In this document: positions 3,137 to 61,899 of the stretch, in pieces
Numbering within the stretch: position 1 is the stretch's first letter
How the letters are laid out: each line of letters begins with the position of its first letter
Source of the DNA: Gonatopus flavifemur
Taxonomy: Eukaryota; Arthropoda; Insecta; Hymenoptera; Dryinidae
Assembly (NCBI GenBank): GCA_018340375.1
Contig: JAFFJZ010000004.1
Span: 34,818,001 to 34,882,000 of the forward strand
Reading direction: 5' to 3'
Length of the DNA stretch: 64,000 bases
Notes under the pieces: model-generated
Seen by the model: only the letters and a program-made list of their open reading frames with translations
The model's database searches: none
Told to the model about the DNA's origin: nothing
Program-made: the position numbers and the translations under genes

Positions 3137-3299
3137 CTCCGATCCAAAATGAACTCTTTCCGATTTCTTCCCGTGATTGTTATCCATGCGCGTGATTTAC
3201 ATATTCATAGGACATTCAGGAAGCAGCTGATTCAATTTGAAATTGTAACAATATGAAAAACCATTGGGAAACCTAAAACTTATATGAAACTCGTCGGTT

Positions 3300-5143: not shown

Positions 5144-5145
5144 TA

Positions 5146-12441: not shown

Positions 12442-13274
12442 CCTGCGACAGCAAAAAACCTTTGAAACTTAAATTCTTGAAACTTAGAAGTTCTTGAATT
12501 TTCAAAAGATTCTGAAGAGAATTCTCAAAGAACTCTTAGAATATTTTCCGCTTTAACTATTTAATCCAGCTTGCCTAAAAACCTTGATACATGGCTAATT
12601 GCTATCAAAACTGAAATGGTTTTCAAAGTCTTCTGGAACACTTTCAAACAGATCATGAGGAATTCCAAAAGCATTGTTGAAGAAGTATTTTGAGATCCTG
12701 TGACAAAATCTTGAGGAGCCGCAAATATCAAAATGAACGTCCAAAATCTTGCACTTAGCTGCAAGTCCAATCAGTTGCCTGGAAATGTGCATACAGAAGT
12801 ATCCGAATCTGTTTTGTAACATCTTCATATATTTTTATGGATTTATAACCTTCTTCAGTTTGATTCGAATGACTCACTTTGAGTTTTTCAACTGATTCGT
12901 GACAAATTTTTTCATATTTTTGGGATTCTTGAGTTAACTGAGGGGTTTTTAGAGCATATCAATGAATGTTTCTACAAATTCTCTAGGATTATCAAGAGCC
13001 TTATATAGCATCCTTCAAGATCTCTTTATAGAATTCTTTGAGACATCTTTTAGGATTTTTTAGGAACTCTCTTAGGATTCTTGACGAGATCTTTTGGATT
13101 TCTCTGCAAACTGTTTTGGAATTCTTTAAGAGTTCTTTTGGATGAGCAAAAACTCCCCTGTGGAATTGACATTTCGGAGATTCTTCAAGAATTCTTTTAG
13201 ACGAGGTATGATATTCTCCGAAAATCCTTCTGGGATTCTCAGAGAACGCTTCCTGAACTTTTTTGCTGTGTGGG
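12442..13274. mobile_element. CCCA-type 2-bp-TSD element
   Basis: Ends CCTGCGACAGCAAAAAA and (complement) CCCACACAGCAAAAAA, flanked by CA. The 833-bp interior is dominated by AAGAATTCTT and TTAGGATTCT words in both orientations. No coding. Confidence 0.7.
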
Positions 13275-14689: not shown

Positions 14690-15510
14690 AGAATTTACAA
14701 CTATTTTAGTATTAGCAACTATGAAAATGTGGTGAAATAGCAACTCAACTATATAATTTTTGTTTTCGGAACTATGTAGGCTATATTTAGATGAACTATG
14801 TAAATTGGATTACAATGACCACGGAAGTTGTAGAGACTAGAAATTTTTCTTGGTAAAAACTCATATGACATAGTAGAAGCAACTATGTTTTTGGGATTTG
14901 ACGTACTATGAGTTAAATGTAATTGGAATCGAGTCAGTAACATTATGTCCTCAGGAAAAATATTCATTAGAACTACTGAAAATACTTGAGAGAACTATGA
15001 ATAGTTAATTACCACACTATTAATCAATATTTACGATCAGAAGATTGAACGAATTGTATAAGGAAAAAAGAAATTCAATCCAATGTACGTCATAGAGGTA
15101 AAGTAATAATATTTGTGATTTTTAATCACTCAAAAAGGAAAATTTTCTACCTCACCTGACAGGGAATCGAACCTATGAATCCTACCTACCTACCTAACAA
15201 TCTACAAACTTTACACCTAACCGATAAACTATACCGCGAATTCATATAAGAGCAACTTAGGAGAAGTTATTGTTTTACGAGTGAATGAAGTTTGTCAACA
15301 TTGGTCCTGTTGTCTATAACTTTTCCGCAATAAGAAGCATTCACCGATAAAAAATGACGTATAAGCTAAAATGTAACTGGAACCATTTGTAATCGTAATC
15401 GTAATTTCCAAACCCCCATAACCATAATTAAAAATATATTTTCATAGTCATTGAAATATAAAATCGGAATCCTTGTAATTTCGAAAAATTAAATGTCACA
15501 CAGCGAAAAA
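14690..15510. repeat. Word-repeat DNA around an orphan tRNA-like module
   Basis: The word AACTATG recurs many times in 14690-15010, and diverged relatives follow to about 15500. This matches the interior style of the 2-bp-TSD elements, but I could not find paired ends. Confidence 0.45.
15155..15240 (-). ncRNA. tRNA-like pol III module A
   Basis: On the minus strand a box A-like TATAGTTTATCGGTTAGG is followed by a box B GGTTCGATTCC (15163-15173). It resembles the module at 48650, sharing ATCGGTTAGGT, a TAGGTAGG-like middle and the sequence after box B. No full cloverleaf, so not a working tRNA gene. Confidence 0.6.
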
Positions 15511-31059: not shown

Positions 31060-31590
31060 AGTGAGTAAATTCTTTGAGTAAAATTACAGGTGGATTAAGA
31101 AAAAGTAGAAAGGATGCAGGTTTACTATACATCTGTATGTTACTTACCACCACGATCAATATCATCAGGTAGCGTAGAAGGAAAATGAAGAAAAGGCAAG
31201 AGTGCAGTGGATATACCACAGGTCCTTGCGTTAGGTACACTATTATCAGATTCTTCCAATAGAATCACAGGTAGATGAAGAAAAAGCAAGAAGGATGCAT
31301 GTCACCATACATCTTTGTTCCACAATGATCAATGTCATTAGGCAGCGTCATAAGAAAATGAAGAAAAGGCAGAAGTGCAGTGGATATACAAGTCCTTGCA
31401 TTGAATAATACCACTATCAGGTTCTTCCAACAGAATCATAGGTGGATGAAGAAAAAGCAAAAAGGATGTAGATGTACCATAGATCTGTACGTTAAATCCT
31501 ACCATGATGATTAGGTAGCGTTGAAGGAAAATGCAGAAAAGATAGGAGCGCCGTGGATATATCACAAATCTTTGCATCGGGTGCATTCCA
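31060..31590 (-). repeat. ~170-bp satellite block
   Basis: Three diverged tandem units carrying GATGAAGAAAAAGCAA(G/A)AAGG and the complement of CCTTTTCTTCATTTT. Other pieces in the opposite orientation: 32290-32384, 32874-32941, 33987-34416, 34791-34890 and 39944-40170; copies on both strands flank 38.7-39.1 kb. Non-coding. Confidence 0.8.
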
Positions 31591-32290
31591 CTGACCAATT
31601 GACGAATGATTAGAGAGACTGTTTAGGATCAACTCAACGAAAATTGAGCAGATACAATATTCTGATTATAGAAATTGTTGCAGAACAACTACAGGTCAAC
31701 TTGACTGATGTGACTGGATGTGACAATTCATTCTGAATGTTTTCTTCCAAAGTTCCATCTTTTCAGTTGTTCCATTCAAGCTGGATTATATTTGTGTTCT
31801 TACAAACCATCATTTTTATCTTTACTTATCTTGGTTTTGGAATGATTCAATTCTCAAATATCATGGATTTTATTAAATTGTCATAGAGTATTTTGGGTTG
31901 AGAGATTTAGTAACTCTAGGATCCATGAAATGTTCAAAATGTATTCAAAGTGATTCATGATCATTAAAAAGCAATATTGTATCAAATATCCAAACCATTT
32001 AATATTCATGATATTTGAGAATTGAATCATTCCAAAACCAAGATAAGTGAAGATAAAAATGATGGTTTGTAAGAACACAAATATAATCCAGCTTGAATGG
32101 AACAACTGAAAAGATGGAACTTTGGAAGAAAACATTCAGAATGAATTGTCACATCCAGTCACATCAGTCAAGTTGACCTGTAGTTCTGCAACAATTTCTA
32201 TAATCAGAATATTGTATCTGCTCAATTTTCGTTGAGTTGATCCTAAACAGTCTGCGTAATCATTCGTCAATTGGTCAGTCAAGTGCATCC
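31590..32290. repeat. ~280-bp-arm palindrome between satellite blocks
   Basis: Arms about 31590-31870 and 32010-32290 are inverted copies (GACCTGTAGTTCTGCAACAA near 32170). The satellite on both outer sides is inverted as well, so the symmetry continues beyond these arms. Confidence 0.8.
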
Positions 32291-32384
32291 GATGCAAAAA
32301 TTTGTGTTATTCCCACGGCGCTCCTGTCTTTTCTTCATTTTATTTCAACGCTACCTAATGATCATGATGGTACGTGAGATACAG

Positions 32385-32873
32385 CCCTCGTGGGAATCCC
32401 AATTTTGAGAGTTTTTCAAAAATGCTCAGAATATTCTCAGAGATTTTCAGAATTACTTGAGTTTTGTGGAGACTTGCAGAGATTTGTAGAAAACGTCCGA
32501 ATTTTGAGAGTTTTACAGAGATTCTCAGAAATTCTCAGAGAAATATTTCCACTAGGTATCCTTTAATGAGGGATCGGACAATCAGTCACCATTAGTGGGA
32601 TACTTCCGGTTTTTTCTATAGTTTAGTTAAGCATGCATAGTGTATGTTATTTTATTAAAATCATTTTTCTCAAATGTATTTACATGCTTTGTTCGAAGAA
32701 TGTTTCAGATTCACTTAATTGTAAGTATTATACATGAATAAGCTGACTTTAAATATGTATCTCGAATATTTTCATAAATATCAGTACCTATCCCACTAAT
32801 GGCGGCCGACCAATCCGTAATCAGTAGTTGATTGTCCGATCCCTCATTAAAGGATCCCCAATTTCCACCAGGG
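32385..32873. mobile_element. CCCTGG-type 2-bp-TSD element in satellite
   Basis: Ends CCCTCGTGGGAAT and CCCTGGTGGAAAT, flanked by AG. The satellite copy near 34094 reads ATACAGATGTAT with no insert. The left half iterates TTCTCAGAGATT. A nested inverted repeat (TCCTTTAATGAGGGATCGG, about 32562-32857) occupies the right half. Confidence 0.78.
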
Positions 32874-32941
32874 AGATGTATAGTACATCTGCGTCTTTCT
32901 TGCTTTCTTTTCACATACCAGTGATTTTATTGAAAGAATCT

Positions 32942-33986
32942 CCCAACTAACATTCAGACATCTTAAAGATATCTTTAAGAAGTCTCAATGCGTTTGTAAG
33001 AAGTCTTAAAAAACATTCTAAAAGATACCGAAACGAATCCTAAAAGATGTCTTATGAAACACGTATAGAATTCGAAAAGATATCTTGAAGAGTTCTTAAA
33101 GATGTCTTGGAGAATTCATAAAAACGTCTTGGAAGACTCTTGAATTTGTTCACAAAAAAAATTCTTAACCTTTTCTTTTTCCTTTCCCTCCTGTTTCTTC
33201 AACTGCTCTCGCGTTCCGATAAAGTTTACCTGATTTCGACCCTTGTTGTTACGGGAATCGAACCCATTCACTTGACGATATATTTACGCCTCAGTCACTT
33301 GAGCTATACGTACAACATGGTAGAGACGCCCATAATTGGCAATATGACATAATGAAATATGTCAGCGGTGTCCAGTTTCAAAGTGAAAATGATCTTTTGA
33401 ACAAACTGTTATCACATGAATAAATATCAAAAGAGTTGAATGTAATTACAAATAGGAAAGATGAATGAATTTAGTGAAACATATTTAGAAATCAATTCTG
33501 TGTTCTAGTAGTCGTTAATATTTCGTGAATACCGCAGATTCTTCCTAAAGTATTTCTGACGAATTGTTGTGAAGTGGATATTCGGTAATTTTATTGTGCA
33601 CGTCATAAGGCGACAAAATCGTACTTTTTACAAACTTTCAAATTTCTTGATATCTCAATGATTGATTCAAGCTTTTAATTCATGGATATGGAATCACCTC
33701 ATTTGCAATACGATTGTAATAACAGGTACATTCAAAGTTTTATTCTGTGTTATTCATGATCATGTGCTCATATAACCTCAAAGCTGCTGAAAAATTTATG
33801 TTCTTAAACGTGTCTTAATCAAGACATCTTTCCGAAATCTCCTCAAGACTTCTAAAAGATATCTTCAAGAACTCTTCAATAACGTTCTTGAAGACCTCTG
33901 AATCAAGACATCTTTTAGAAATCTTTTACAAGATGTCTTTCCAACACTTCTAAGAGATATCTTCAAGAATTGAAATGTTAGTTGGG
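32942..33986. mobile_element. Long CCCA-type element with tRNA-like module
   Basis: A 1045-bp element with ends CCCAACTAACATTC and CCCAACTAACATTTC, flanked by CT (32940-32941, 33987-33988). The satellite copy at 39950 reads GAAGAATCTGATA, which is the empty site. Both ends are built from AAGATATCTT and AGACATCTT words. A tRNA-like unit sits 303-374 bp from the left end. Confidence 0.87.
33245..33316 (-). ncRNA. tRNA-like pol III module B (72 nt)
   Basis: On the minus strand, 72 nt from GTTGTACG to CGTAACAAC, whose ends pair as an acceptor stem. Box A TAGCTCAAGTGACTGAGG and box B GGTTCGATTCC are present, with a plausible T-arm (ATGGG/CCCGT). The anticodon arm is not convincing. A run of T (minus strand) lies at 33153-33161. 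A tRNA-derived unit, probably not a working tRNA. Confidence 0.65.
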
Positions 33987-34416
33987 CTGATATTAGTATA
34001 CTCGACGCAAGGAACTGTTGTACATCCTCTGCGCTCCTGCCTTTTCTTCATTTTCTTACAAAGCTACCTATTGATATCGATCCTGCTGGTACATGATATA
34101 CAGATGTATGATATATCTGCATCTTGCCTGTTTTTCCTGCATCCACCTGTAATTCTACTCGAAGAATCTAGAGATTTATTATCAATTGAATCCACTTTGT
34201 AATCTGTGATGCAGTTTGATAGTGGTGATAGCAAACTCACAGATCTATGGTGTATTCGCTTCATTTTGTTTCTTTCTTATCCCTCTGAAACACTGCGCAA
34301 AGAATCTGATACCAGCATCGGATAGATCTGTGATATATTCACTGCGCTTTTGCCTTTTCTTCGTTCGACTATGAGGCTACCAAATGAGATTGATAGTGAC
34401 GATAGCTAGCATACAA
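33987..34416 (+). repeat. Satellite units
   Basis: Two to three diverged ~170-bp units (CCTTTTCTTCATTTTCTT, CCACCTGTAATTCTACT). Interrupted at 34417 by a MITE and resuming at 34791. Confidence 0.75.
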
Positions 34417-34790
34417 CCCATACAGCACCGGGAGGGTTCCTGAACGTTCAGAAGACGTGCTTGATTTCACAGAGAACGTGCAAATAACGTCTCAGGATGT
34501 TCTAAAAACGTCGCATGTATGTCCCAGGGACATGCAAATGTCTCGGTTAGTTCTATTCATGTCCCCGTGTGACTTTGTGGTTTTTCAAGGTTAGTTTTCA
34601 TGAAAGTACGTTTAGAAGGCATGATGAAAACGTCTGGTAGTAGATCAAAGGAACGTGCTTAGAACGTATTCAAGGATATCAAATGGGAAGGTACTCTAAA
34701 CGTTTGTAAAACTTGCTTCAGCGGGACCAAAACACGCAAAACCAAGAGCACGTTTTCAAAACGTTCAAAGAACTTTCTGTGCTGTCTGGG
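34417..34790. mobile_element. CCCA-type 2-bp-TSD MITE
   Basis: Ends CCCATACAGCACCGGGAGG and CCCAGACAGCACAGAAAG, flanked by AA. The interior repeats AACGTGC and AACGTTC words. 374 bp, non-coding. Confidence 0.83.
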
Positions 34791-35339
34791 AAATTTGTGA
34801 TACGTCTGCTTCATTTCTGCTTCGTCTTCAGCCACCTATGATTCTACTCCAGAGAACTGATTAACCCAGCATGTTGTAAGAATCTATGACATATCGTCGG
34901 TACTATCACAGAACCTCGTATCTTGATTTTCGACGGTTTGGTGGTTCCATCGGAAAAATGGTCAGCACATGTTAATACACATATGAACAAGACTTTTATA
35001 AACAAAGAGGCCTTCGATTATTCTTGAGTGAACATACACTGTTAAAAATTTCCGCATGAATTTTAATGTAACTCTACTGGAAGTTTTTTTCAAGTACGTA
35101 ACTAAAAATTCATGTACTGGTTCCACAAATTTCAAGTCTACATACATTAAATTTAATGTACATGGATTTGAAATTTAATGTACGAATACATGAAATTTGT
35201 ATATGAATTTTCATTCGCGTTCCAGAAAAAAACTTCCAGTAAATTTTTTTAAGCAAAAAACATGTTTCGGAGGAGAACATTTGCAGATTGACGACCACGT
35301 TGTTCACTACGTTCTCATGTCATGGAGAGAAAATTGGAA

Positions 35340-35430
35340 ACCTCGAAGAGAATCGAACCACCTAAACCAATCCCTACCTAATGTTGCGCGATCTACTATC
35401 CTAACGCCCTAACGACCTATGCTAAACCGG
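35340..35430 (-). ncRNA. tRNA-like pol III module C
   Basis: Minus strand: box A-like TTTAGCATAGGTCGTTAGG (35409-35427) and box B GGTTCGATTCTC (35348-35359), followed by a T6 run at 35255-35260. Lies 311-390 bp from the left end of its host element and points toward it. No clear cloverleaf. Confidence 0.55.
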
Positions 35431-35519
35431 TACCTACGTGGTTTATTAGAAAAGATCAATGTAAATGACGTGGATATCTGATTCAATCCATCGGTTGAGT
35501 ATAATAATCTATTAACCTA

Positions 35520-36970
35520 TGTGAAAATTGCAATTCGGTTGACAAATGTGAGGTTAAGTTTATGTGATAAAAAACAATGAATGAATTATTTTTGTGAAAT
35601 GTGTGGTCGTTATTGTTTAATTACTATGTATTAAAAATCTTTTCAAGCGAAAGTTTAAAATAAATTTCCAAAAACTTGGATTATTCACATAAAGCTCGTT
35701 GGATGGTTTTACTCTTGAAGAGTACTGTCAAAGTTGACATTCGCAAATTGGAGAAAAAAGTCTTATTTTCTGTCATGAATTTGTTATTAGAGTAGTGACA
35801 AACTTGTAGGAAGAGTTTGAAGGTTGGGTGGAATCCATATTGATCAGGAAAGTCAAAACCGTATTGCAAAACTTGGAAAATCTGTTAACGTAGCTGACAA
35901 TACTGGGGTATCGAGTCAGCTTTTCCTTACTACATGAAATCTAGGCAGGAGAAATGTATCAAAATTCAGTGAATTCAAGTTGGTGTTGAGTGAGAGAAGA
36001 CAGAAATATTCATTGGATTTTATTAGTCACTATAAAAATGTCAACAAATAAGGAAAGGCTATGTAGGACTCACTGTATTGTCTTTTAATATTTTTGTTTC
36101 AATAATGTTGTATCATGCTGCTACGAATGAATGTTATTATATTTGTGAAACAGGTTCAATACACTTGTTTCTTCAACTTATTAGTAAGAAAATACAAAAA
36201 TGTCCACAATACAAAATTATTGAAACAAAAATAATGAAAGACGATACAGTGAGTCCTACATAGCCTTTCCTTATTTGTCAACATTTTTATAATAACCAAT
36301 AAAATCCAATGAATATTTCTATCTTCTCTTACTTGACACCAACTTGAATTCACTGAATTTTGATACATTTCTCCTGCCTAGATTTCATGTAGTAAGGAAA
36401 AGCTGACTCGATACCCCAGTACTGTCAGCTACGTCAACAGATTTTCCAAGTTTTGCAATACGGTTTTGATTTTCCTGATCAATATGGATTCCACCCAACC
36501 TTCAAACTCTTCCTAAAAGTTTTTCACTACTCTAATAACGAATTCAAGACAGAGAATAAGACTTTTTTCTCCAATTTGCAAATGTCAACTTTGACAGTAC
36601 TCTTCAAGAGTAAAACCATCCAACGAGCTTTATGTGAATAATCCAAGTTTTTGGAAATTTATTTTAAACATTCGCTTAAAATAGTTTTGATTAAATGAGT
36701 TCTTCAGGACTCATATTACTACCAAAATGATTTGATCTCTGAGTTTTTTCTGAGAAATATTGATGTAAGTATTTGAATAAAACTCATTCTCACTGCATCA
36801 ACAAATTATGATTTTTGACATATTACAACAGCTATGACTGATTCAATAATTCATGTTGCACTGAATAATAGATTTTTTTAATACATATTAATTAAGAACT
36901 AACGATCACACATTTCACGAAAATGATTAATTTTTATTTTTCAATTCAAAGAAGTCAACCTCATATCCGT
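35520..36970. repeat. Large palindrome inside the 3.1-kb element
   Basis: Inner arms 35630-36060 and 36240-36675 are near-identical inverted copies (ATCCAACGAGCTTTATGTGA in the right arm). More diverged outer arms reach about 35520 and 36970; the right one is interrupted at 36685-36865. Matching short open frames in both arms are symmetry artefacts. Confidence 0.82.
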
Positions 36971-37663
36971 AAACTATATTTCAATTCTAAAATACAAACA
37001 GATTTGTTACATTTTCTTTCTCATTTATATCACCTGTAATTATATGTAAAAATTAATGGGAAAACCTGTTCAGCTGTTTAAAAATCTTTATGAAATACGT
37101 GCTGTATGGGTACTGACATTTCCGATATCAAGTGTGAACAATATTTTATTCATTTTAGAATTGAAAAGTTCATTCTTCTCCATTTTATATATATTTTAGT
37201 AAGCACTTGTATAATTATTAGAGATGGTTTTACTCCACATTATCAATTAGTTCAACTTATTACATACTAATAAGTAGCTCACTAGTTTTGACCAACCAAC
37301 GCTAGTTGGATTCAACTTATCAGTAATTGACCAGTACCTCGCTAGTTTTTTGTGCTCAGTTTTTCCTCTCTAGCGCCTCATCAGTCATAGGAAAAAATTT
37401 GTGAGATTTCTACCAGGGTACGTGCATGGGATTGCGCACTGTGAATGCAAATTCTCATTCCATATTGGTTCTGAAATATAGGAAGCCAAATTTTCTGAAT
37501 TATAACCTTCAATCGTGAGAATTTTCCATCGATCCCATAATGTTTCAGAACCACTATGAAATTAAAATCCTCAATCCCAAACATGTATTTGATCATCGTA
37601 TTTATAAAATTCGTATTTCTCACGTGGTTCACGAAAATATTTCGCGCAAAATTTCGTACTCTT

Positions 37664-37771
37664 CCCCAACAGAACCTAAAATTTGTGTACGTCCAGAAAA
37701 CGTCCAAATACGTTTCTCAGACGTCCTTTGGAGGTTTCCTGGACGTACACAAATTTTAGGTTCTGTTGGGG
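37664..37771. mobile_element. CCCA-type 2-bp-TSD MITE (108 bp)
   Basis: Nearly perfect palindrome with ends CCCCAACAGAACCTAAAATT, flanked by TT. Inner words ACGTCC and GGACGT. Confidence 0.83.
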
Positions 37772-38317
37772 TTCAGTGTCGTTCAAGCACTCTTCACGAC
37801 AAGACTCGTAGAGTGTCACCTGAAGCGATTGAGAACAATAATTCCAAAATTTATAACCACAAAAAGATTATAATTATTCAATTTATTCACTCAATTTCAA
37901 ACATTATGGATGGTTATGTTATTTTCTCAAATCTCTATCGATTTACTCTAAGTTAATTTTTAATGTACTGATACTTGAAATTGTAATTCAATTCCACATG
38001 ATTTGAAAATTAATGTAATAATACTTGAATATCATTTCATGTACCTTCAAGTTGAAATTTCATGTACACTGGTACATTAAGAGTGCATTAAAATTCAAGA
38101 AATTTTTAACAGTGTAATTGATCACATATAACTTGATTATATGTGTATTTAGTGTGTACTGATGATATTTCCGATGGAACCTCGATACTGTCGAAAATCG
38201 AGATACGAGGTTTTGCCATAGTACCGACGATATCTACTGTGTTTTCGCCTTTGAAAAAATCGTTTTGAAATAATTCAATGTGACTAAAGTAACTGGAGAC
38301 CAACTTCAACTTCTACT

Positions 38318-38483
38318 CAGTGATGCCAGCATTTGGTCGATCGAGTGGATTTTCCCCCTCCATCACGCTGTATACAATCAAATTTCTTTTGTCGGAGGTT
38401 TGATTGTGTGTGTGACATTTCTATACAGACAGATGTGATGGAGAGGGAAAATTGACTCGGTCGATCAAATGCTGGCATCACTG
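38318..38483. mobile_element. 166-bp hAT MITE
   Basis: Ends CAGTGATGCCAGCATTTG, flanked by the 8-bp duplication CTTCTACT (38310-38317, 38484-38491). Shares CAGTGATGCCAG with 58647-58852. Confidence 0.92.
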
Positions 38484-38579
38484 CTTCTACTGTTAGTCAA
38501 ACTATTTACATCTCTTTGAGGTTTTGTTATGAACTTCACTTTCTAAAAACTTTTTATATTGCATTGGGGTTTTTTGATG

Positions 38580-39090
38580 AATTCCCCTTTCTGATTATGA
38601 GTGATGATTCAGTTATTGATTCATTACATAATCTTTGATCATCCATTTCATGCCATTCATTATCAATAGAATCCACTTACAGATGAATCTGTAATTCATC
38701 CATTCAATACAAAATTTCCATAAGACCGACTACATGAAATTGATAGGGGTGGTAGACGACGCACTGGTCTATGGTATATTTGCTTCTTTTTCGTGTTTCC
38801 TTATACACCTGTGATACTACTCAAGCAATCCGATAACAACTCTTAGTCAAGAAAGTATCAGGCCAATGAGGAAAGACAAAAACGAAGTAAATATACCACG
38901 CGATCTGTACGTCGTCCACCACCACTATCCATTCCATTTGGTAATTTCATAGGCAATTTTGTATTGAATGGACGAACTACAGATTATAAAGTGAATTCAA
39001 TTGATAATGAATGGCATGAAATAGATGATCAAAGATTATGTAATGAATCAACAACTGAATCATCGCTTATAATCAGAAAGTGAAATTCAT
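38580..39090. repeat. Inverted repeat around satellite
   Basis: TTGATTCATTACATAATC near 38618 is inverted near 39035. Between the arms are two inverted pieces of the ~170-bp satellite. Confidence 0.7.
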
Positions 39091-39143
39091 ATGTACGTAC
39101 ATATGCATCCTTCTTGCTTTTTCTTCATCTACCTGTGATTCTA

Positions 39144-39943
39144 CTCTCTAAATCTGAATCAGTAAAAAACCGCTGATTCACAGTGAAAATTGATTCACAC
39201 TGATTCCATCAGTCCTAAGGCGTCCACTGAGAATCAGTTAAAAATCACTGATTCAATCAGTGCAAACCACTGGTTCAATCAGTGAAACTAGTGACCTGAT
39301 CAGAAAAGAAAAATATCATGGTAAAAAAAATTATCTTTTCTGGGATCTGAACCCAGACCCGCAACGTCACAGTCGCTCACCATAACCGCTCAGCTACCGA
39401 ATCTCACTTGGATAAGGTAGAATTATAGATGTACTTGAAGAACGTCAGATGTTTGAAATACTTATATCTCAAAAACGGTTGCTTATGTGGACGAATAGCT
39501 TGAAGGTTTTCAGTTTGTTAAAACCATGCGGATCTGTATTGTTTATAATTATTTCAAACACCTTGCACAAGCGACTACTTGCATATTATTTCTCTTATAT
39601 GAATGTTGGCATTATAATTTGAAAATGTATTTTTTCGAGTATATTTTTTCAGAGTATATGAAACGTAATAATGTAATTCTTAATTAAAATGTACACATTT
39701 CAAAAAATTTTATTGACATACCACAAAGTTTCATTTTATTTTTCGAATATACTTTGAAAGAAACTGCAATTCATCTGCTTACTGATCAATCAGTGAAATG
39801 ACATCTCACTGATTATGTCAGTAGTTATTTCACTGATTCTCAGTGCTTTTCACTATCGAACCAGTGAAATATACTGAAATCTCAGTGGTTACAAAGATCA
39901 CTGATTCAAACAGTGGTTTTTTCACTGATTCAGATTTAGAGAG
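39144..39943. mobile_element. CTCTCTAAAT-type 2-bp-TSD element
   Basis: An 800-bp element with ends CTCTCTAAATCTGAATCAGT, flanked by TA. Satellite copies (e.g. 31230-31290, reversed) read straight through GATTCTATTGGAAGAATC, giving the empty site. The interior iterates CACTGATTCAGTG. Contains a tRNA-like module 194-266 bp from the left end. Confidence 0.9.
39338..39410 (-). ncRNA. tRNA-like pol III module D
   Basis: Minus strand: box A TAGCTGAGCGG, box B GGTTCAGATCC in a perfect T-arm (CTGGG/CCCAG), then a T8 run at 39323-39330. The acceptor stem is not paired. Looks derived from a tRNA with a long variable region, but is not a clear gene. Confidence 0.62.
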
Positions 39944-40170
39944 TATTGGAAGAATCTGATAGTAGTGTACCTAACGCAAGGACCTGCGGTATATCCACAG
40001 CACCCTTGCCTTTTCTTCATTTTCTTTCTACGCGACCTGATGATATTGATTGTAGTGGGAGGTAACATACACATGTATAGTATACCTGCATCTTTTCTAC
40101 ATTTTCTTGATCCACCTGTAATTTTACTCAAAGAATCTAGGGAAATCATTTTGTATCATTTTGCACATAA
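39944..40170 (+). repeat. Satellite unit
   Basis: One well-preserved unit (CCTAACGCAAGGACCTGCGG ... CCACCTGTAATTTTACTC), useful as a reference for the empty sites of neighbouring insertions. Confidence 0.75.
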
Positions 40171-40351
40171 CTCATAATTTTGATTCAGGATATCATATTT
40201 TTTTAGCATACCTGAAGTGCTCGGTGACTAACCTTATTTTCGAATGTTTTCCAAACTTGCTATAATTTATCAATGTTTTTCAATGGACTTCAATTTTCAA
40301 TTACAAGCCATTATTCACTGATTGAATTTACATTCATCTTATGATAACCTT

Positions 40352-40721
40352 CACGGAGAAAAAGGAATTCGCTGTGGCAGCGAAATCTACTTTTGCTGGG
40401 TTCCTTTTGCCAGAGCAGCAAATTTTTTGCTGTGACAGCAAACTATTTGCTGTTCTAGCAATCTTGTTAGCTGCGACAGTGAATTTTTAGCTGAGGCAGC
40501 AAAAAATGTTTGCTATCCCAGCAAAATTTGTTTGCTATTTTATATATAATACTGAAAATTTGCTGGCGGAGCAAACATTTTTCGCTGCCACAGCTAAAAA
40601 ATTGCTGTCGTAGCTAACACGATTGCTGTTATAGCAAATTCTTAGCTAGGTCAACAAAAAATTTTGCTATTCTATATATAATACCTCGATTTGCTGCGTC
40701 AGCAAATTTTTTCTCTCCGTG
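40352..40721. mobile_element. CAC-type MITE with GCTG/CAGC words
   Basis: Ends CACGGAGAAAAAGG and CACGGAGAGAAAAAATT, flanked by TT. The interior is almost wholly TTGCTG, CAGCAAA and AGCTA words in both orientations. 370 bp. Confidence 0.9.
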
Positions 40722-41176
40722 TTAAATAACCTGTAATTCATCCATCTTGTATTGTCATGAATAACATGTAATTCATCCATCTCGTATTGTCATATTATTT
40801 TTTTATGTATTCTGATTCAGATTACAATAGAATCAACTAACTCACATTTCGTATTATTTCGGATTGTAACCTCCTTATATGATTATTAATTGGAAGGAAA
40901 TATGAAATTCTCAATGGACCTGGTTTTCAAGTATTGTATCTGACACAGAAAATAACCGACACGCGACTTTCTCCTTGGGGATGGGAATGATGGAATGAAA
41001 ATTCCTTGAACTTTCCATTGCGATTGCTTTTTTTGAAAGGTTTCTCCGACGATTTCATTTCATCGTTATATTCGGCGATTGTAGCATCGGCGAAATAGAT
41101 ATTTTGTGAAAAAAGTTTGATACCATTCATACAATGCTTGTGGTGTTGTGATTTGATGACATGTTGCACACTGCAG

Positions 41177-41413
41177 CACGGAGAAAAGTAAAGAAGTATA
41201 TTTTACTTCATATAATTCGTCAATATTTTTTGGTAGTTCCTAAGATATTTTCAGTATAGCTCACTCCTTAAAAAGTAAATCTTCCTTGGAAATTCTTAAA
41301 GAGCACTTCAATGGAGTAACTTCCACTTCGAAAATAGTCATACATATCTAATTGGGCGCTGAAGTAAGAACTACCGCGATTGGAATAGCAGTTACTTCTC
41401 ATTTGTTTCCGTG
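41177..41413. mobile_element. CAC-type MITE with AAGTAA words
   Basis: Ends CACGGAGAAAAGTAA and CACGGAAACAAATGAGAAGT. Flanks AG and AA do not match exactly. The interior iterates GAAGTAA/TTACTTC. Confidence 0.72.
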
Positions 41414-41740
41414 AAGCTTACAAAAGCTGCATTTCTTTCAAGATAATTATTTTGGGTTAGTGAATTGTAGAAATCGAATGTCACCTGAATCAATCCCTCA
41501 CAATTTATCACCAATGATAACCGGAAAAATTAGTTTTGTTTTGTAAGTATGACGAACAGATCACAAAATCTGCACGGAAAAAAAGACATAGTCACACTAG
41601 CTATTTTCAAGTAGTTGTATTGAAGATAGTGGCGATGATAAACCACATATCTGCCCATAATAGTTCGTTAGTGGTCACAAATGTTTTGAGTATTCGCCAC
41701 AAGCAAATTAAATCGTTGTGACAAACTGGTTGATCGAATG

Positions 41741-42114
41741 TAGTGTTGCCGCGATATTATCGTCGAAATTTAGAAATAATCGATTATCTTAATTTTGACA
41801 GGTTTTCATGAAACTTTTAACGCGTAGATCTTCGACTGTGCACGAAATGGAACGGGATAATGGATCATCTTGGTCTTTTAAACAAAATGAATCAAAATAT
41901 TCTTACACTATCGTAACGATAATTATCGATATATCGTAACGATAAATGGAAGCATATCTTGGTTTATTTTGTGTACAAGTCTGGGATTATTCATTATTCC
42001 GTTTCATTATGAGCATAATCGAAGATTCGTGGATTATATATTCCATAGGAACGTGTAAGAATTGAGATAATCGATTATTCCTCAATTATCGACGATAATA
42101 TCGCGGCAACACTA
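41741..42114. mobile_element. 374-bp hAT MITE
   Basis: Ends TAGTGTTGCCGCGATATTAT, flanked by ATCGAATG (41733-41740, 42115-42122). The interior is rich in ATCG/CGAT (AATCGATTAT, TATCGTAACGATAA). Non-coding. Confidence 0.92.
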
Positions 42115-42121
42115 ATCGAAT

Positions 42122-42345
42122 GAGAGAAATAACTACCTCATCTACGTCACTTTGAAATCCCAATAAAAAAACTCGAAAGAAGTGAAAAAATACCGCCAAG
42201 CACATGAAAATGCGATCAATATCTACAAAAACAAATCTATAAACCTATTTTCAACAGAAATTTCATTACATTTAAAATTTCGATGCAATACAACAGCATA
42301 GGCTGCAACTGAACAAAAAGATGTGAAATCAATATGAGCTGCCTA
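42122..42345. repeat. Partial copy of palindromic family
   Basis: One arm of the 26421 family, plus 30 bp of upstream flank (ATAACTACCTCATCTACGTC) that also precedes the copy at 44728. Confidence 0.8.
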
Positions 42346-42378
42346 CCTCGAACCTAATTAGGCACTCATCTAATACTA

Positions 42379-42610
42379 CACCGAGAGAAAAAGCATGCTT
42401 TAGAAGCATGACACTTCAATGCTTCTAACGCATTTGTTACAACGTACTTTTAACGCTCGGGACTCATGCAGTTAACGCACGAGACCATGCTTTTTGGGTA
42501 TGTGTCACATGCTTTCTAAGCATGGGTACCGAGCGTTGGAAGCACGTTGTGACAAATGCATCAGAAACTTTAGTGCGTCATACTTCTGCAGTATGCTTTT
42601 TCTCTCGATG
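42379..42610. mobile_element. CAC-type MITE with AGCATG words
   Basis: Ends CACCGAGAGAAAAAGCATG and CATCGAGAGAAAAAGCATA, flanked by TA. The interior repeats GCATG, CATGCTT and AACGC words. 232 bp. Confidence 0.85.
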
Positions 42611-42756
42611 TACTCAAATACTACGTATACCAGCACGGAGTGCCTATTGCACCCGTTCTCGTACGCTCTGACCGTATCATCTAAAATATTGGAGTAATCC
42701 GATTGGAAGTTGGATAGTTTTTCATTTCATGCAATAATGATTGATAATCCGTGGGG

Positions 42757-42780
42757 TTGTCTGTCTGTCTGTCTGTCTGT
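42757..42780. repeat. (GTCT)n microsatellite
   Basis: About six GTCT units immediately upstream of the mariner fossil. Confidence 0.9.
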
Positions 42781-42892
42781 ACTCGGGATAACTCTGGACC
42801 GAGTGAACCAAATTGGATGAAATTTATAGAGGACCTTCTTCAAACCCTACTTTTTTGGATTTTTTTTATTGGGATAAAGTTTTACCCAATCG

Positions 42893-43174
42893 TTCTCTAA
42901 ATTTCTTGGAGTGAAAATTCACTCTTGCCGAGTGAAAATACTGCAACTCCGAAAGAGTGGAAAATTTCACTCTTAAAGAGTGAATTTTCACTCTATAAGA
43001 GTGGACATCAACTCTGGTGTTTGGAGTGAAAAACTCACTCTTAGGAAAAAGAGTGAATATTGACTCTCAAAGAGTGAAATTTCACTCTTCAAGAGTTGAG
43101 CTCCCACTCCGTTCTAGAGTTGCAGTATTTTGACTCTTTGAAGAGTGAATATTCACTCCAAAGAATTTAGAGAG
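42893..43174. mobile_element. CTCTCTAAAT-type MITE, copy in mariner leader
   Basis: Ends TTCTCTAAATTTCTTGGAG and CTCTCTAAATTCTTTGGAG, flanked by CG. The interior iterates AGAGTGAA/TTCACTCT. 282 bp; sister of 43302. Confidence 0.9.
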
Positions 43175-43301
43175 CGGAGATGTAAGTTTTTGAGTCAAAT
43201 CCTCGTCCTTTGCGGGAAGTTCTGATTTTCTGCTTTCATTTGAAGAAAACTGCGACTGAGGCTCATCGAATGCGCTCAAGTACTTACGGCGAGACTGCTT
43301 T

Positions 43302-43562
43302 CTCTCTAAATTCCTTGGAGTGAAAATACTGCAACTCCGAAAGAGTAAAGAATTTCAATCTTAAAGAGTGAATTTCCACTCTATAAGAGTGGAAATCACC
43401 TCTGGTGTTTGGAGTGAAAAACTCACTCTTAGGAAAAAGAGTGAATATTGACTCTTAAAGAGTGAAATTTCACTCTTCAAGAGTTGAGCTCCCACTCCGT
43501 TCTAGAGTTGCAGTATTTTGACTCTTCGGAGAGTGAATATTCACTCCAAAGAATTTAGAGAG
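43302..43562. mobile_element. CTCTCTAAAT-type MITE, copy in mariner coding
   Basis: A 261-bp sister of the 42893 copy, flanked by TT. Removing it and one TT joins mariner codons ...GETA and RTCREWF.... The interior iterates AGAGTGAA. Confidence 0.92.
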
Positions 43563-44085
43563 TTCAGTAAAGAACGTGTCGTGAATGGTTTCCACGTTTC
43601 AAGAAGAGTGATTTTAATGTCGAGGACCGACATGGCGGTTGAAGAGAGAACATTTTTGAAGATTCCGAATTGGAGGCATTACTTGATGAAGACTCGTGCC
43701 AAACGCAAGAAGAATTGGCAGAATCATTGGGAGTATCTCAACAAACCATTTCCGAAACGCCAGAGCTATGGGAATGATTCAGAAACAGGGGAATTGGGTT
43801 CCCTACGAAATGAAGCCAAGAGATGTTAAGCGATGTTTCTTTACTTGCAAACAGCTGCTTCAAAGGAAGAATCGAAATGGGTTTTTACACCGCATTGTGA
43901 CCGGCGACGAAGAATGGGTTCACTACAACAATCCCAAGCGCAGAAAATCTTGGCAAATGCCCGGACATGTCCCCACGGAGACGGCTGAACCAAATATTCA
44001 TGGTGCCAAGATTATGCTCTACATGTGGTCGGACCAGCTCGGTGTCGTGTATTATGAGCTATTGAAACCAAGTGAAACCATTACA

Positions 44086-44538
44086 CACGGAAAAAATTCT
44101 AGGACTGTGAGAGTTCGAAATTTATATAACTCTAACAGTTCAATTATTTTTGCTGATGCAAGTTCAAAACAACATTGAACTCGTATAGTCACACGATCCA
44201 CGCCATTAAATCCAATAGTTTGGCGTGAGAGAGTGCGGCGCTGAGTCAAATTGCGAGAGCTCGAGCGATCTGACCCTCAGGGTCCGAGATTTCGTACTCT
44301 GAGAGTCCGATTGCTTGAGCTCTCGCAGTTCAACGCAGCGCCGCGCTTTCTCACGCCAAACTATTGGATTTAATGGCCCACATCGTGTGACTATAACAGT
44401 TCGATGTTGTTTTGAACTTTTACTATTCAATTTTTTAACCGAGTCAAGTCAAAAACTCGCACTGTTACTGTTCAAATTACATTTGAACTCTTTCAGTGCA
44501 AACAGTTGTATTGATTCAGTCCTGAAATGTTTTCGGTG
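44086..44538. mobile_element. CAC-type MITE inside mariner coding
   Basis: Ends CACGGAAAAAATTC and CACCGAAAACATTTC, flanked by CA. Excision of the element and one CA restores the codons for ETITGDRYR in frame. A strong inner palindrome covers 44170-44425 (TTTGGCGTGAGAGAGTG and complement). Confidence 0.92.
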
Positions 44539-44727
44539 CAGGGGATCGATATCGAACGCAGTTGATGCGTATGAGCCGAGCATTGAAAGAGAAATGGCCA
44601 ATACCAAGAAGGACACGATAAAGTTATCCTCTAACATGATAATGCTCGGCCACATGTCTCAAAACCGGTCAACATATTTGTCAACACTAAAATAATTAGA
44701 GAAATAACTACCTCATCTACGTCACTT

Positions 44728-45609
44728 TGAAATCCCAATAAAACAACTCGAAAGAAGTAAAAAAACTCTCTCTCAACAGAAATTTCATTACATTTAAAAT
44801 ATCGATGCAATACAACAGGATATGCTCCATCTGAAAAAAAGATGTAAAATCAATATGTGCTGCCGAATACGTTTGGTTATCTAAATGGTATGTGAACAAT
44901 TTTTTGTATATTGCTACTTCAATTTTTTTCAATTCTATTCAAAGTGATTTATGATCATGAATGATGAAAAATCAATGATGACGATGTTCAATCATTTGAC
45001 ATATCTACTAGAAAGAACTCTGACTTATTTTGAACCAAACCTGTTGAACATTTCTGAACAGTTTTGAAATTTATGTCCATACGAGAAACTTGACGTGGCT
45101 AGTGGAAAATTTTGAGCTCTCATTATTGAACACTTTTATCATAAAATCTTTATTGGCCACGCCCAGTATTTCGCATCGACATTAGATTCAAAACTGTTCA
45201 GAAATGACCAACACGTTTGGTTCAAAATAAGTCAGCGTTCTTTTTAGTAGGTATGCCAAATGATTGAACCTGATTTTTCTTCTACTCCGCTTTATATTCA
45301 TTTGCAATACAATGATGTTTTTCAAAGATCATAAATCACTTTGAATAGGATTGAAAACAATTGAAGTTACAATATACAAAAAATCGTTTACATACCATTT
45401 GGATAACCAAATGTTCTTGGCAGCACATATTGATTTCACATCTTTTTTTCAGATGAGTCATATCCTGTTGTATTGCATCGAAATTTTAAATGTAATGAAA
45501 TTTCTGTTGAGAATAGGTTTATAGATTTGTTTTTGTAGATATCGATCGCATTTTCATGTGCTTGGCGTTATTTTTGTACTTTTTTGGAGTTTTTTTTATT
45601 AGGATTTCA
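44728..45609. repeat. Palindromic repeat family, copy 2
   Basis: Same structure as 26421-27251: arms about 44728-44960 and 45290-45609 with a loop carrying GGCCACGCC. Downstream 45620-45930 matches 29140-29370. Confidence 0.82.
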
Positions 45610-46073
45610 CTTCTTTTTTTGAATATGACTTCAATTAAAAACTAATGAAAATTAAATACTCATGTCAAGCTTGATAGGAATCATAGCAGTGAAGAAAATG
45701 TCCTCAGATTATTTCTGTGATATGAAAAACCACTCGGGCTCTCATTGTTCATCTCATCATTGGACAGCAATAGATTATTGAAACCAAAAATGAAGGAAAG
45801 AAGGAAAGGAAAGTGAATTTCCTTAAACAAGTATAGATGTGAAGGATTCTGGAAGCTAAATGTTAGTTGACCGATAAGTTGACGCTGAAAGAGCTCAGAG
45901 TTTTTGAAAAACACATATTGACTCCGTTAGGTTCAGCTAAAGGTTATGTTTGTTTCTAACGGCTATTTTTATCAGGGTGCAGCTCCCTTGTTCAAGTGTC
46001 TCATAGGATATGATAGGAAATGATTGATGATATTCTATGATATTCCATGGATTCTATGATACATGGGAACGTA

Positions 46074-46297
46074 CACTGAGAGAAAGGGCCTACTCAAATA
46101 TTCGACAGCTAGGAAATTTAGTCACTGTAAATAAGAATTTAGTTGTGCCAGCTAAATTTTATTTGTTTTAACTATATTTTTTATTCTTATTGAACAAACC
46201 ATTTTATTCATGTTTCAGACAGCTAGACTTTTATTTACCCCAACTAAAGTCTAACTAGCGCAAATAAAACTCTAGCTGCGATAACTTTCTCTCAGTG
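46074..46297. mobile_element. CAC-type MITE with AGCTA/AAATAAA words
   Basis: Ends CACTGAGAGAAAG, flanked by TA. The interior repeats AGCTA, AACTAAA and ATTTAGTT words. 224 bp. Confidence 0.88.
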
Positions 46298-46432
46298 TAC
46301 TTGACAGGATGTTTATAATATTTAATCATGTATCCTCCTCAATACGAATGTTTGAGATTTGCAATAAATCGAATTTATGATATCTTATAATTTGGGCAAA
46401 TTGAAAGAAGATTGAATATCACAAATACTCAA

Positions 46433-46864
46433 GGGGATACCAGCGCCGTGACACTAGCCAAATCCTTTCTGACAAATCATGCACGGAGAAAAAATGGTTT
46501 GCTACCATAGCGCCTACAAAGGAATTTGTTGTCCTTGCAAAAATATTAACTCCGGCAGCTAAGACGTGAGTTCTGTTAACAAATTGGCTTATGTCAGCAA
46601 AAAAAATGTAGTTGTGTCAATCATTTTTCTTGCTCTTTTAGCTAATTTTTTTGTAGCCGCTATAGTAACAGACCTGCTTGTTATGCTAGCAATACTTTTT
46701 TCTCCGTGTGTGCAAATAAAGCAACACAATCGAAATATCGCTCTGTACAGACTTTCTTCAATCAATAAAGATGGTCTGTACAGAGCGATATTTTAATTAC
46801 ATTGCTTAATTTTTGCATAATTTGTCAGAAAAGATTTGGCTAGTGCCACGCCGCTGGTATCCCT
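46433..46864. mobile_element. piggyBac-like MITE hosting a CAC-type MITE
   Basis: Ends GGGGATACCAGCGCCGTG and AGGGATACCAGCGGCGTG, flanked by TCAA and TTAA. Resembles the ends of 8457-8550 (GGGATACTAGCG). A central hairpin repeats GCTCTGTACAGA words. It carries 46482-46708. Confidence 0.72.
46482..46708. mobile_element. 227-bp CAC-type MITE, copy a
   Basis: Ends CACGGAGAAAAAATGGTTTG and CACGGAGAAAAAAGTATTG, flanked by TG. Nearly the same sequence and exactly the same length as 47260-47486 and 47700-47926. Confidence 0.92.
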
Positions 46865-47193
46865 TTAAGTGAAGGCAATATGTTTTGATGCGAAAAACAG
46901 GATAGCTGAGATTGGAAATTACATCACATCAAACCCCAGCGGAGTTTATACCAGTCTATACGAAATGATGTTATGCATAGTAAATTGTATTCAATTCACA
47001 TCCTATGTGGAAAAATGAGCATTGAATCCTGTCATGATGGATCAGATAATGCATAACCAGAAATTGATTGTGATTTTTATCATATATCACGTGAGTAAGT
47101 CCTATGATGATGTTTGCGATATAGGGGGAATATTCCTCCCATGATAACACATAATAATCGCAATGCATTCTTATGTAGTTCTGTGATGCACAT

Positions 47194-47539
47194 CCACTTA
47201 ACACACAATGTCTCGGTAATGTCTCGAAATATAACTCCGACATAACCGAGACATTTTTACACGGAGAAAAAATGGTTTGCTACTATAACGCCTACAAAGA
47301 AATTGGTTGTCCTTGCAAAAATATTCACTACAGCAACTAAGGCGTTAGTTCTGTTAACAAATGTGTTTATGTCAGCGATAAAATTTAGTTGTGTCAATCA
47401 TTTTTCTTGCTCTTACAGCTAATTTTTTTTGTAGGCGCTATAGTAACAGACCTGCTTGTTATGACAGCAATACTTTTCTTTCCGTGTAATATTACAACAA
47501 TATTTCGAGTTATGACTGAGACATTGCGTGCTATGTGGG
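47194..47539. mobile_element. CCCA-type MITE split by insertion
   Basis: Ends CCACTTAACACACAATGTCT and CCCACATAGCACGCAATGTCT-like, with inner words ACTCGAAAT/ATTTCGAGT. Interrupted by 47260-47486. Duplication unclear. Confidence 0.65.
47260..47486. mobile_element. 227-bp CAC-type MITE, copy b
   Basis: Sister of 46482, flanked by TA, inserted in the CCCA-type MITE. Confidence 0.92.
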
Positions 47540-47699
47540 AAACATTGATCTACGTTGACACAACCAATATCATGCCTATGATATCTTATAAGGTTAGGGA
47601 GAGTAGAATCCTATCATATCTTATGAGCTCTTACGGGGATATCAAATAGGTGGTTATTCCGATCATGTTCGTCGCAAGGGACTCCTATCACAATGTTTG

Positions 47700-47926
47700 C
47701 ACGGAGAAAAAATGGTTTGCTACTATAGCGCCTACAAAGAAATTTGTTGTCCTTGCAAGAATATTCACTACAGGAGCTAAGACGTTAGTTCTATTAACAA
47801 ATCTGTTTAAGTCAGCAAAAAAATGTAGCTGTGTCAATCATTCTTCTTGCTCTTACAGCTAATTTTTTTTGTAGGCGCTGTAGTAACAGACCTGCTTGTC
47901 ACACCAGCAATACTTTTCTCTCCGTG
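47700..47926. mobile_element. 227-bp CAC-type MITE, copy c
   Basis: Sister of 46482, flanked by TG. A paralogous stretch at 47107-47128 reads ATGTTTGCGATATAG with no insert, giving the empty site. Confidence 0.93.
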
Positions 47927-47963
47927 TGCGATATAGCGGAAACAGTTTTCCTATGATAACCTA

Positions 47964-49068
47964 CACTGTAAAAAAAAACTGGAAATTTACTGTGCAACTG
48001 GACTGGAAATTTCCAGTGCTAGTACTGGAATATGGATATTCCAGTACATGTACAGAGATTTTGTTGTTACGTTACTGAAAATTTACCAAGCATAACTGAA
48101 AATTCAGTCATTGTACTGGAATTTTCAAGTTTGAGATGATGTACTGAAATTTTGCCATGATTTCGCGAAAATTTTACCGGCTCGTACTACAATTTTATAG
48201 TTCTGGTGCACCAAAAAAAAATATTCCCTCAAAAAGGACTTGAGAAAAAATTTGGAATTTAGAAAAAAAAACCTAATCGTTGGTATACTGGAATTATACA
48301 GGTTTTTAACTGCAATTCTCAGGTTTTGTGATGGAATTTTCCAGTTACTATGCAATTGAATTATACAGGTTTTGAACTGCAATTTTCAGGTCGTGTGATG
48401 GAATTTTCCAGTTGCTATGCAACGGAATTTAATCACTGTTGCACTGAAATTTTCCACTTCTATTGGATTTCGTCATTTCTGGCAGGAAAAATTTCAAGTC
48501 TTTATATTAAAAATTTCCTGATTGAGATTTTGAATAATAATTGTAATTGTAGCCAATGAAATTGATATATGAGGTTTTTCCAAGACTTATCCTCTTGTGT
48601 TCTAGATATGAAGCATATGTAGTAACCCAAGCTGGCCTTCCAACATGTCGCGCTATATAGCTCATCGGTTAGGTCTTAGGTTTCAGTTGGTAGGCAGGTA
48701 GAAAAGTGTGGGTTCAAATCCTGTTAGGTAGACATGAGTTTCTGTCCATCCAAATGAACGATCAAAAGTTTCTCAATCATCTTGGAACACAAGGACCCTG
48801 CAAAATCACTTTGCGTGAGCAATTTTTTTTCAATTTTCATGGATATTTTCAGCATTAATTTTCCAGTACATGTCCTGGAAAAGTCCAGCTCGTGTACTGA
48901 AAAATTCCAGTACCGAGGCTCAGAAAATTTCCAGTTTTGATGCGGAAATTCCATAACGTTTGCACTGAATTTTTGCAGTACAAATGTGCTGAAATTTTCC
49001 GGTACATGTACAGGTTAATGACTTCCAGTACATGTACTGGAATTTTCCGGTGAAATTTTTTTACAGTG
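47964..49068. mobile_element. 1.1-kb CAC-type element with tRNA-like module
   Basis: Ends CACTGTAAAAAAAAACTGG and CACTGTAAAAAAATTTCACC, flanked by TA. The interior iterates CTGGAAATTTCCAGT and GTACATGTAC. Paralogous DNA at 47140-47180 lacks it. A tRNA-like module lies 347-413 bp from the right end. Confidence 0.9.
48650..48735 (+). ncRNA. tRNA-like pol III module E
   Basis: Plus strand: TATAGCTCATCGGTTAGG (48655-48672) is very close to a standard tRNA D-arm/box A; box B is GGTTCAAATCC (48711-48721); a T8 run follows at 48823-48830. The T-arm pairs only with wobbles. Confidence 0.65.
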
Positions 49069-49673
49069 TATCATATTAATCGCAATTCATTCTGATGTAG
49101 TTAAGTTGTAAAGCAGCGGATCTCTGGAAGAAAAATTGAAATATCTCATGATTTCTCAATCCGAAGTTATAGCGATTTGAAGTTTTTTGACTTCCAGCCA
49201 ATCAGGATGTAGCAACTTCGAATCATTGTGGGTCCGAAACGAACAATGATAGGATGATTTGATTTTTTTCCCAGAGATCCGCCGTTTTCCAAATCAACGA
49301 ATGGTATCAAGCTGAAGTATGTAGCACACGGTGCTTCTGAGTTATTTGAATTCGAAAAAACATCTGAAAACGCTCATATCTCTAAAACTAAGGCTTAAAA
49401 AAATTATATATACATATATATATATATACTCACACAACACAGCCATGTCCCAAACTCCCGTGATGTCAGTTCCAAAAGTATTTTTTGAGAATTCTTTTTG
49501 AATACCAGGGATTCGTAAAGAACTTCTTCTGGACTGTCATAACAGGGACTCTTAAAGAATCCTATTATGAATTCATAAGGAGTTCTTTATGAATACATCG
49601 GAACCAGCGTGATGTATGGGCGTATAGATATATAAATTATACATGGTTCCTATGTCAAATTTGAATCCATATA

Positions 49674-58852: not shown

Positions 58853-59075
58853 TGCATAATCTGATGGAAAAAGGAATATTCTAAACAACATATTCCTGGC
58901 ATATATCATTTCACATCATGTGGCAATATTGTAAGAATTAGATTCAATCCACATGGCAGGAAGATTTTTATGAACTCAGTAAACTATAACCTCTCATTTG
59001 CAAATAACCGATGAACTCATTGTATTGTGTACGCGTGTCGGAATGAAGTATATGAAGTCGGAATGAATTTGTATA

Positions 59076-61159: not shown

Positions 61160-61899
61160 TATACTGTCTCAAAACTTTTTTTCGAAGTTTTGTCGAATGC
61201 ACGGAATTATCTTAGCCTAATTGAGATTGATTTATCGAATGTATATCCAAAAATATAGCTCCATGATCATGCAATAAGAAATTTTGAGATTTCGTCTACA
61301 GTAACTCGACGCGTATTTTTAGTGACAATGTTGGAACTGTATGAGACGGAACTACAATTAATATTTATGAAAGTTCAATCATAGTGACTTGAAGTATTTT
61401 TCGTCAGCCATTATGAGCCGACAGAACTTTAGAGGTTTTGCAATTCCAAAACACTTTTGAAAAATGTTTCTGCAACATGAGAAAAGCTATTTAACAATGA
61501 TTTTCCTTCTGGAAAGAATTATGATTGAATCATGATCGTGATACTGTATTAGACATCCTGAATATGTTGACAGAAGTCTTTTAGAAATATATAACCTCTT
61601 TTGTAAGATGAAAACTAGACCCTGATAACAAAATCCGAAAGGAAACTGTAGGAAACGATTGATTTTGCAAAATATTGTATCGTTTTTTATCATGCCTATC
61701 GTAGTTGATTTTGGGACCGATGGGAATGCTATCGTTTTCAATGCGAATCTATCATATTTGAGTTTAATCGTTAGAAAACGATACGAAGTTTTTCGTTTTA
61801 TATCGTATTTTATGATCATACCCGTGACTTATATGACATTAACGATATGAAATTTATAGTATCTTATGTGATGTATACAAAGTCGTTTTCTATGGCATG

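Follow-up and report, generated by a model that had tools for sequence, protein, structure and literature searches.

A candidate RNA polymerase III unit recurs at a fixed place and polarity in several families of inverted-repeat transposons of Gonatopus flavifemur

Introduction

tRNA-derived short interspersed elements (SINEs) have a tRNA-like head with an internal promoter for RNA polymerase III (pol III), made of a box A and a box B. Miniature inverted-repeat transposable elements (MITEs) have terminal inverted repeats (TIRs), a short target site duplication (TSD) of fixed length, subterminal repeats, and young, near-identical copies. Boxes A and B also occur outside tRNA genes, in viral pol III RNAs (VA RNA and EBER) and at TFIIIC-only sites. 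Here we describe a box A/box B module, followed by a run of T residues (T-run), inside long TIR elements of the dryinid wasp Gonatopus flavifemur. The window, i.e., the whole stretch of DNA that was analyzed, is 64 kb long (positions 34818001-34882000 of contig JAFFJZ010000004.1 in a genome of 636,049,841 bases and 402 contigs), and it was supplemented with further stretches of the same genome. The module keeps its position, polarity, and T-run in elements that are otherwise unrelated, and in one diverged family its boxes and T-run are conserved. The reading that we tentatively adopt, and regard as quite possible, is that a type-2 pol III unit (box A, box B, T-run) is kept as a working border inside several non-autonomous TIR families.

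The elements share with MITEs and other non-autonomous TIR transposons the TIRs, the short TSD, the subterminal repeats, and, in the family called E1 below, young near-identical copies; unlike these, they carry an oriented pol III-type unit. With tRNA-derived SINEs they share the box A/box B promoter, a head without a recognizable cloverleaf, and, in one class of units, a length of 163 to 188 nucleotides. However, the unit lies here inside a TIR element with 2-bp duplications, its T-run follows 8 to 106 bases past box B, and it has no duplication of its own. VA RNA, EBER, and the TFIIIC-only sites resemble it in having A and B boxes outside tRNA genes and in yielding a short terminated RNA or factor binding without a tRNA, but they are not borders of mobile elements, and the folds predicted here are no more stable than expected by chance.

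According to the excerpted text of its description, DINE-1 of Drosophila is non-autonomous, reaches a high copy number, and has inverted repeats in a terminal or subterminal position and a 2-bp TSD; its authors reported no pol III promoter or tRNA similarity and hence argued for a MITE and not a SINE (PMC2374699). DINE-1 is thus comparable as a high-copy insect element with inverted repeats and a 2-bp TSD, and it differs in lacking the promoter. Cassandra elements, again according to an excerpt, are non-autonomous TRIM retrotransposons that adopted a pol III promoter, that of 5S rDNA (PMC10853983); the adopted promoter is the likeness, whereas Cassandra is a long-terminal-repeat (LTR) retrotransposon with the promoter in its LTR. 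The excerpted text on ATon (PMC3422177) mentions neither tRNA nor pol III, and searches of open-licence PMC papers, a set that does not extend to subscription papers or preprints, gave no title or abstract opening that describes a pol III unit inside a TIR transposon.

Results

Four long elements of the window, whose coordinates in the initial annotation are all correct to the base, contain one module each, and a scan of the whole window for the boxes added a fifth module, E5, which that annotation had missed. Mismatches refer to the consensus scan described below.

32942..33986, minus strand (that of the module): E1 element; TIR CCCAACTAACATT, TSD CT, 22-bp subterminal repeats
33254..33306, minus strand: E1 box A to box B; 2 mismatches in A, 0 in B
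33154..33161, minus strand: E1 terminator-like T8, 92 bases past box B and 212 bp from the element end
35037..38114, minus strand: E2 element; TIR CACTGTTAAAAATT, TSD TA, nested repeats inside
35349..35424, minus strand: E2 box A to box B; 3 mismatches, weak alone
35255..35260, minus strand: E2 T6, 88 bases past box B
39144..39943, minus strand: E3 element; TIR CTCTCTAAATCTGAATCAG, TSD TA
39343..39396, minus strand: E3 box A to box B; 1+1 mismatches
39323..39330, minus strand: E3 T8, 12 bases past box B
47964..49068, plus strand: E4 element; TIR CACTGTAAAAAA, TSD TA
48658..48721, plus strand: E4 box A to box B; 2+0 mismatches
48823..48830, plus strand: E4 T8, 101 bases past box B
15163..15231, minus strand: E5 module, box A to box B; T6 93 bases past box B, related to the E4 module

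Each of the four annotated modules is oriented toward the nearer end of its element, and the T-run said to follow it is present: the first run of six or more T's starts 92, 88, 12, and 101 bases past box B in E1, E2, E3, and E4. When E1 to E4 and the E5 region were compared pairwise, the sole match below an E-value of 0.01 joined the E4 and E5 modules (48 bp, 79%, E 1.6e-4). On the downstream side of the E5 module (window 15231-15163) lie AACTATG words; ends of its host element were not found.

Short box consensuses match by chance in AT-rich, repeat-rich DNA, and we therefore measured how often. Both strands of the window were scanned for box A (TRGYNNARYNGG) and box B (GGTTCRANTCC) with starts 32 to 85 bases apart, against 60 order-2 Markov sequences. 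With at most two mismatches there were four matches (E1, E3, E4, and E5), compared with a Markov mean of 0.35 and a maximum of 2. At up to three mismatches the five matches (E1 to E5) stand against a mean of 4.7, so the E2 boxes by themselves are not above chance, like other three-mismatch matches; what speaks for E2 is its layout and its similarity to some of the other modules. Requiring in addition a run of seven or more T's within 130 bases, in 212,171 bases (the window, other loci in which E1 copies were masked, and three random stretches), gave 10 matches against a mean of 1.1 and a maximum of 4 in 15 Markov sets, and the reversed and complemented controls gave 2 together. The downstream T-run was not a criterion of the first box search and hence is separate evidence: among ten modules picked on boxes alone (at most two mismatches, E1 copies outside the window left out), seven are followed within 130 bases by a T7 or longer, for which the background is 0.078, and one has a T6 upstream. 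The three without a T7 are E5 (T6), a module termed L042b (T5), and a match in R3, one of the random stretches (none). Chance is therefore a very improbable account of the modules as a whole, and for E1, E3, E4, and the L004, L038, and L042a modules introduced below it is largely refuted.

Some matches were set aside. Two in the window are probably due to chance: 17487 on the minus strand (1+1 mismatches, T7), which passes even the scan with the T-run and lies inside a TIR element at 17107-17808 (GGGTGAGCC..., TA duplication) with its T7 183 bp from the end of that element, and 14167 on the plus strand (1+1 mismatches, T6). We also dropped chance-like box matches, most of them with three mismatches, in L010, L011, L019, L020 (plus strand), L038 (at 301), R2 (11487), R3 (2408, with 2 mismatches and no T-run, and 7904), L041 (1703), L043 (927 and 1449), N1 (17808), TE1 (3459), and L044 (506). 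The core of L004 is similar to window 44918-44976, an AT-rich segment of an element in which no module was seen.

The flanks of E1 copies contain additional modules, and a few more came from later stretches:

L004/L041: 851 bp, TIR CCCTGGTAAAAATCG, TSD TG/TG, module-bearing
L038: 501 bp, TIR CCCTGGTGAAAATG, one family with L042a, duplications not identical
L042a: 441 bp, TIR CCCTGGTGAAAATG, one family with L038, duplications not identical
TE2: 475 bp, third member of the L038/L042a family, from a later stretch, without an identical TSD
L042b: one-ended relative of the L038/L042a family, module without a T6
L020: module with T8, inverted ends of the host not both resolved
L002: module with T8, 3 mismatches in the first scan, host ends not both resolved
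L007: module with T11, 3 mismatches in the first scan, host ends not both resolved
N2: module with T9, host ends not both resolved

Seven elements of six families could be measured at both ends (E1, E2, E3, E4, L004, L038, and L042a). All seven have TIRs, with 2-bp TSDs of CT in E1, TA in E2 to E4, and TG in L004, and in all seven the order is TIR, core, box A, box B, T-run, TIR, with the module facing the nearer end. The placement that the initial annotation saw as shared among elements with different ends thus recurs as one plan in unrelated families. From the end of the T-run (a T6 in E2) to the faced end there are, in the order given above, 212, 218, 179, 238, 155, 163, and 164 bp; the probability of a placement at 150 to 240 bp, multiplied over the six families, is about 1e-6, with bounds that were set after seeing the data. 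In E1 to E4 repeated words become abruptly denser at the T-run or just past it, and the T-run is the inner edge of a subterminal word block. Because the T-run ends 155 to 238 bp inside the faced end, the predicted transcript would stop before the terminal region, and the earlier proposal of a transcript that reads through this region is not supported in any of the seven.

Thirteen units, measured from ten bases before box A through the end of the T-run, fall into two length classes. The short class (79 to 98 bases: E3, L004, L038, L042a, TE2, and L007) has its T-run 8 to 16 bases past box B, and the long class (163 to 188 bases: E1, E2, E4, E5, L020, N2, and L002) has it 88 to 106 bases past box B. 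For these lengths box A was positioned by eye in E2, L002, and L007, with starts a few to about ten bases off the scan, which leaves the classes the same.

E1 was the sole family searched genome-wide, and its near-identical copies are many and dispersed. A query of 131 bases that includes the E1 module gave 731 candidates, 40 of which were scored; 34 of the 40 are 100% identical over all 131 bases and all 40 at least 99%. The first 30 copies lie 0 to 0.8% from their own consensus. Both TIRs are exact in all 30, and 27 have a far side of 716 bp; the near side varies from 258 to 346 bp in 22-bp steps (exact fit in 27), and the 2-bp TSD, variable in sequence, is identical in 28. The module, with which these copies were recruited, is at the same place in 30/30. 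Among the next ten loci, seven have both TIRs exact, five of them with equal TSDs; the other three comprise a diverged copy, a truncated one, and one adjoining a second copy. The E1 module thus belongs, at a fixed place, to a family that is young and high in copy number. In the window and eight other stretches the E1 consensus matched only the E1 of the window and, in a word-like manner, TE2 (71 to 73%). E1-like elements are nested in or adjoin other repeats in L007, L020, and window 31066-38233, and in two loci (L036 1033-2456 and L039 1-2152) E1 copies lie side by side or have an extra 3' end, perhaps by aberrant transposition.

The diverged L038 family allowed us to compare parts of the element. 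A search by homology outside the boxes, in 358,815 bases (some overlapping), found L038, L042a, and TE2 as the only full-length members, and the unit is in 3/3. Among the three, the specified box positions are invariant in 17/17 cases and the T's in 6/6, against 294/403 elsewhere (summed region counts): 150/200 on the 5' side, 116/162 on the 3' side, 21/28 between the boxes, 4/8 from box B to the T's, and 3/5 at unspecified box positions. None of the 13 units has a predicted RNA fold more stable than its shuffled versions (z -1.5 to +1.0), which favors the promoter over the product: the promoter and terminator appear to be kept, and the fold is not. This bears on the idea of a functional RNA product, which might for instance act, like adenovirus VA RNA, as a decoy for small-RNA machinery or innate sensors. 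Two length classes and a terminator-like T-run would suit such an RNA. However, the folds, the differences in sequence among families, and the segments linking the two boxes to each other and box B to the T-run, which are as variable as the rest, make it improbable.

A stronger contender is passive cargo, i.e., that tRNA-like sequences or short SINEs entered the founders of these families, the placement was inherited, and the unit is inert for the transposon. The units have an internal box A and box B, as tRNA-derived SINEs do at the sequence level, and no cloverleaf was recognized. Six long-class modules (E1 not included) are alike over their first 130 bases in 12/15 pairs (z 3.8 to 12), their host elements being unlike, which fits one SINE-like unit entering several elements; the likeness is partly that of the shared boxes by which the modules were selected, and the three unlike pairs (z 0.8, 1.2, and 2.5) all involve E2. 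Short relatives without a module exist as well. On the other hand, the 75 bases past box B are not alike in 13/15 of these pairs (z below 2), and the short-class units end 8 to 16 bases past box B without a SINE body. No target duplication surrounds the units, the longest match between a unit's own flanks averaging 5.7 bases, compared with 5.9 in a cross-element control (13 units), and independent SINE insertions with their own duplications, named initially as an alternative, are not the explanation. Entry at the same inner border and in the same polarity would need repeating in six families, and the better preservation of boxes and T-run in the L038 family is not expected of inert cargo. We consider passive cargo possible and rather doubtful. 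As to origin, a SINE-like unit may have entered several founders, or the modules may descend from a common ancestor whose remaining sequence changed.

Discussion

The unit sits at the inner border of one element end and, we hypothesize, would yield a short RNA, of about 80 to 95 or 165 to 190 nucleotides, that stops before the terminal region of this end. It may thereby keep its end open and shielded from read-through, such that the transposase reaches the subterminal sites. Occupancy by pol III and TFIIIC is what the anatomy of the unit would predict, and since no fold is conserved, the likeliest function lies less in the RNA sequence than in the binding of pol III and its transcription of the unit. 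Autonomous elements with the unit downstream of the transposase gene may be the ancestors of the long forms, and short forms may have lost it. More broadly, and with some hesitation, we propose that many unrelated TIR families of this genome could keep or re-acquire, a short way inside one end, a promoter-plus-terminator border at which pol III assembly helps transposition or protects the end. The initial suggestion that the module is a working part thus stands as far as its fixed and oriented placement goes (E1, 30/30; L038 family, 3/3 full-length members), and lacks support as to terminal read-through.

Several observations weigh against a working border. Such ends also occur on elements without a module, contrary to what a general rule would demand: three short elements from R4, L028, and R2 (about 230 to 450 bp) have ends of the E2 type and no module, two short CCCTGGTGAAAA elements (R2 12796-12948 and L013 2117-2248) gave no scan match, and eight of nine other inverted-repeat spans of the window (400 to 2100 bp, picked from a list of 76 inverted-repeat pairs) had none, the ninth (17098-17817) being doubtful. 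No convincing module was found in 60 kb at round coordinates (R1 to R3, three 20-kb stretches), which held one two-mismatch match without a T-run and weaker ones; R4 and N1, the latter adjoining the window, added a single three-mismatch match in 40 kb. Two good units and one doubtful match came from N2, TE1, and TE2, 60 kb that were chosen near known elements. E1 copies that lack the module were not countable, because the query that recruited the family contained it, and all three members in the conservation test were also caught by the box scan, so that a bias is possible there. The long-class modules need not be independent, because 12 of their 15 pairs resemble each other. The plan itself is less sharp in some elements: in L042a the nearer end is nearer by a mere 14 bp, no word-block edge coincides with the T-run in L004, L038, and L042a, where word density is low throughout, the host elements of E5, L020, L002, L007, N2, and L042b did not yield both ends, and L042b is also without a T-run of 6. 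No tRNA was detected by ARAGORN in the whole window or by Rfam (the window at gathering scores; 32900-49100 and four loci at E up to 10), and no autonomous element was found.

Some ends are common to several elements, namely CCCAACTAAC, CCCTGGTGAAAA, and CACTGTWAAAA. With few changes, CCCTGGTGAAAA is common to R2 (L049+L050) 12796-12948, L013 2117-2248, L041, L038, and L042, and such ends occur on long and short elements with differing inner sequence; perhaps one transposase serves several CCCTGGTGAAAA-ended families. Frames of a mariner-type transposase (Pfam Transposase_1) lie at window 5200-6300 (minus strand; long and open) and 43690-44178 (plus strand). The window further contains a tandem array of a 388-bp unit in both orientations (1777-5145) and a young-looking fold-back structure with long inverted arms that are 98 to 100% complementary (59071-61164).

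DNA transposons are expected to need just their ends and a transposase, and a pol III promoter is taken as the sign of a SINE, the use made of it for DINE-1 in the excerpted text (PMC2374699). If several TIR families indeed have a selected pol III border, pol III factors would have a role in the biology of DNA transposons, and a classification that goes by whether an element has a pol III promoter would mislead.

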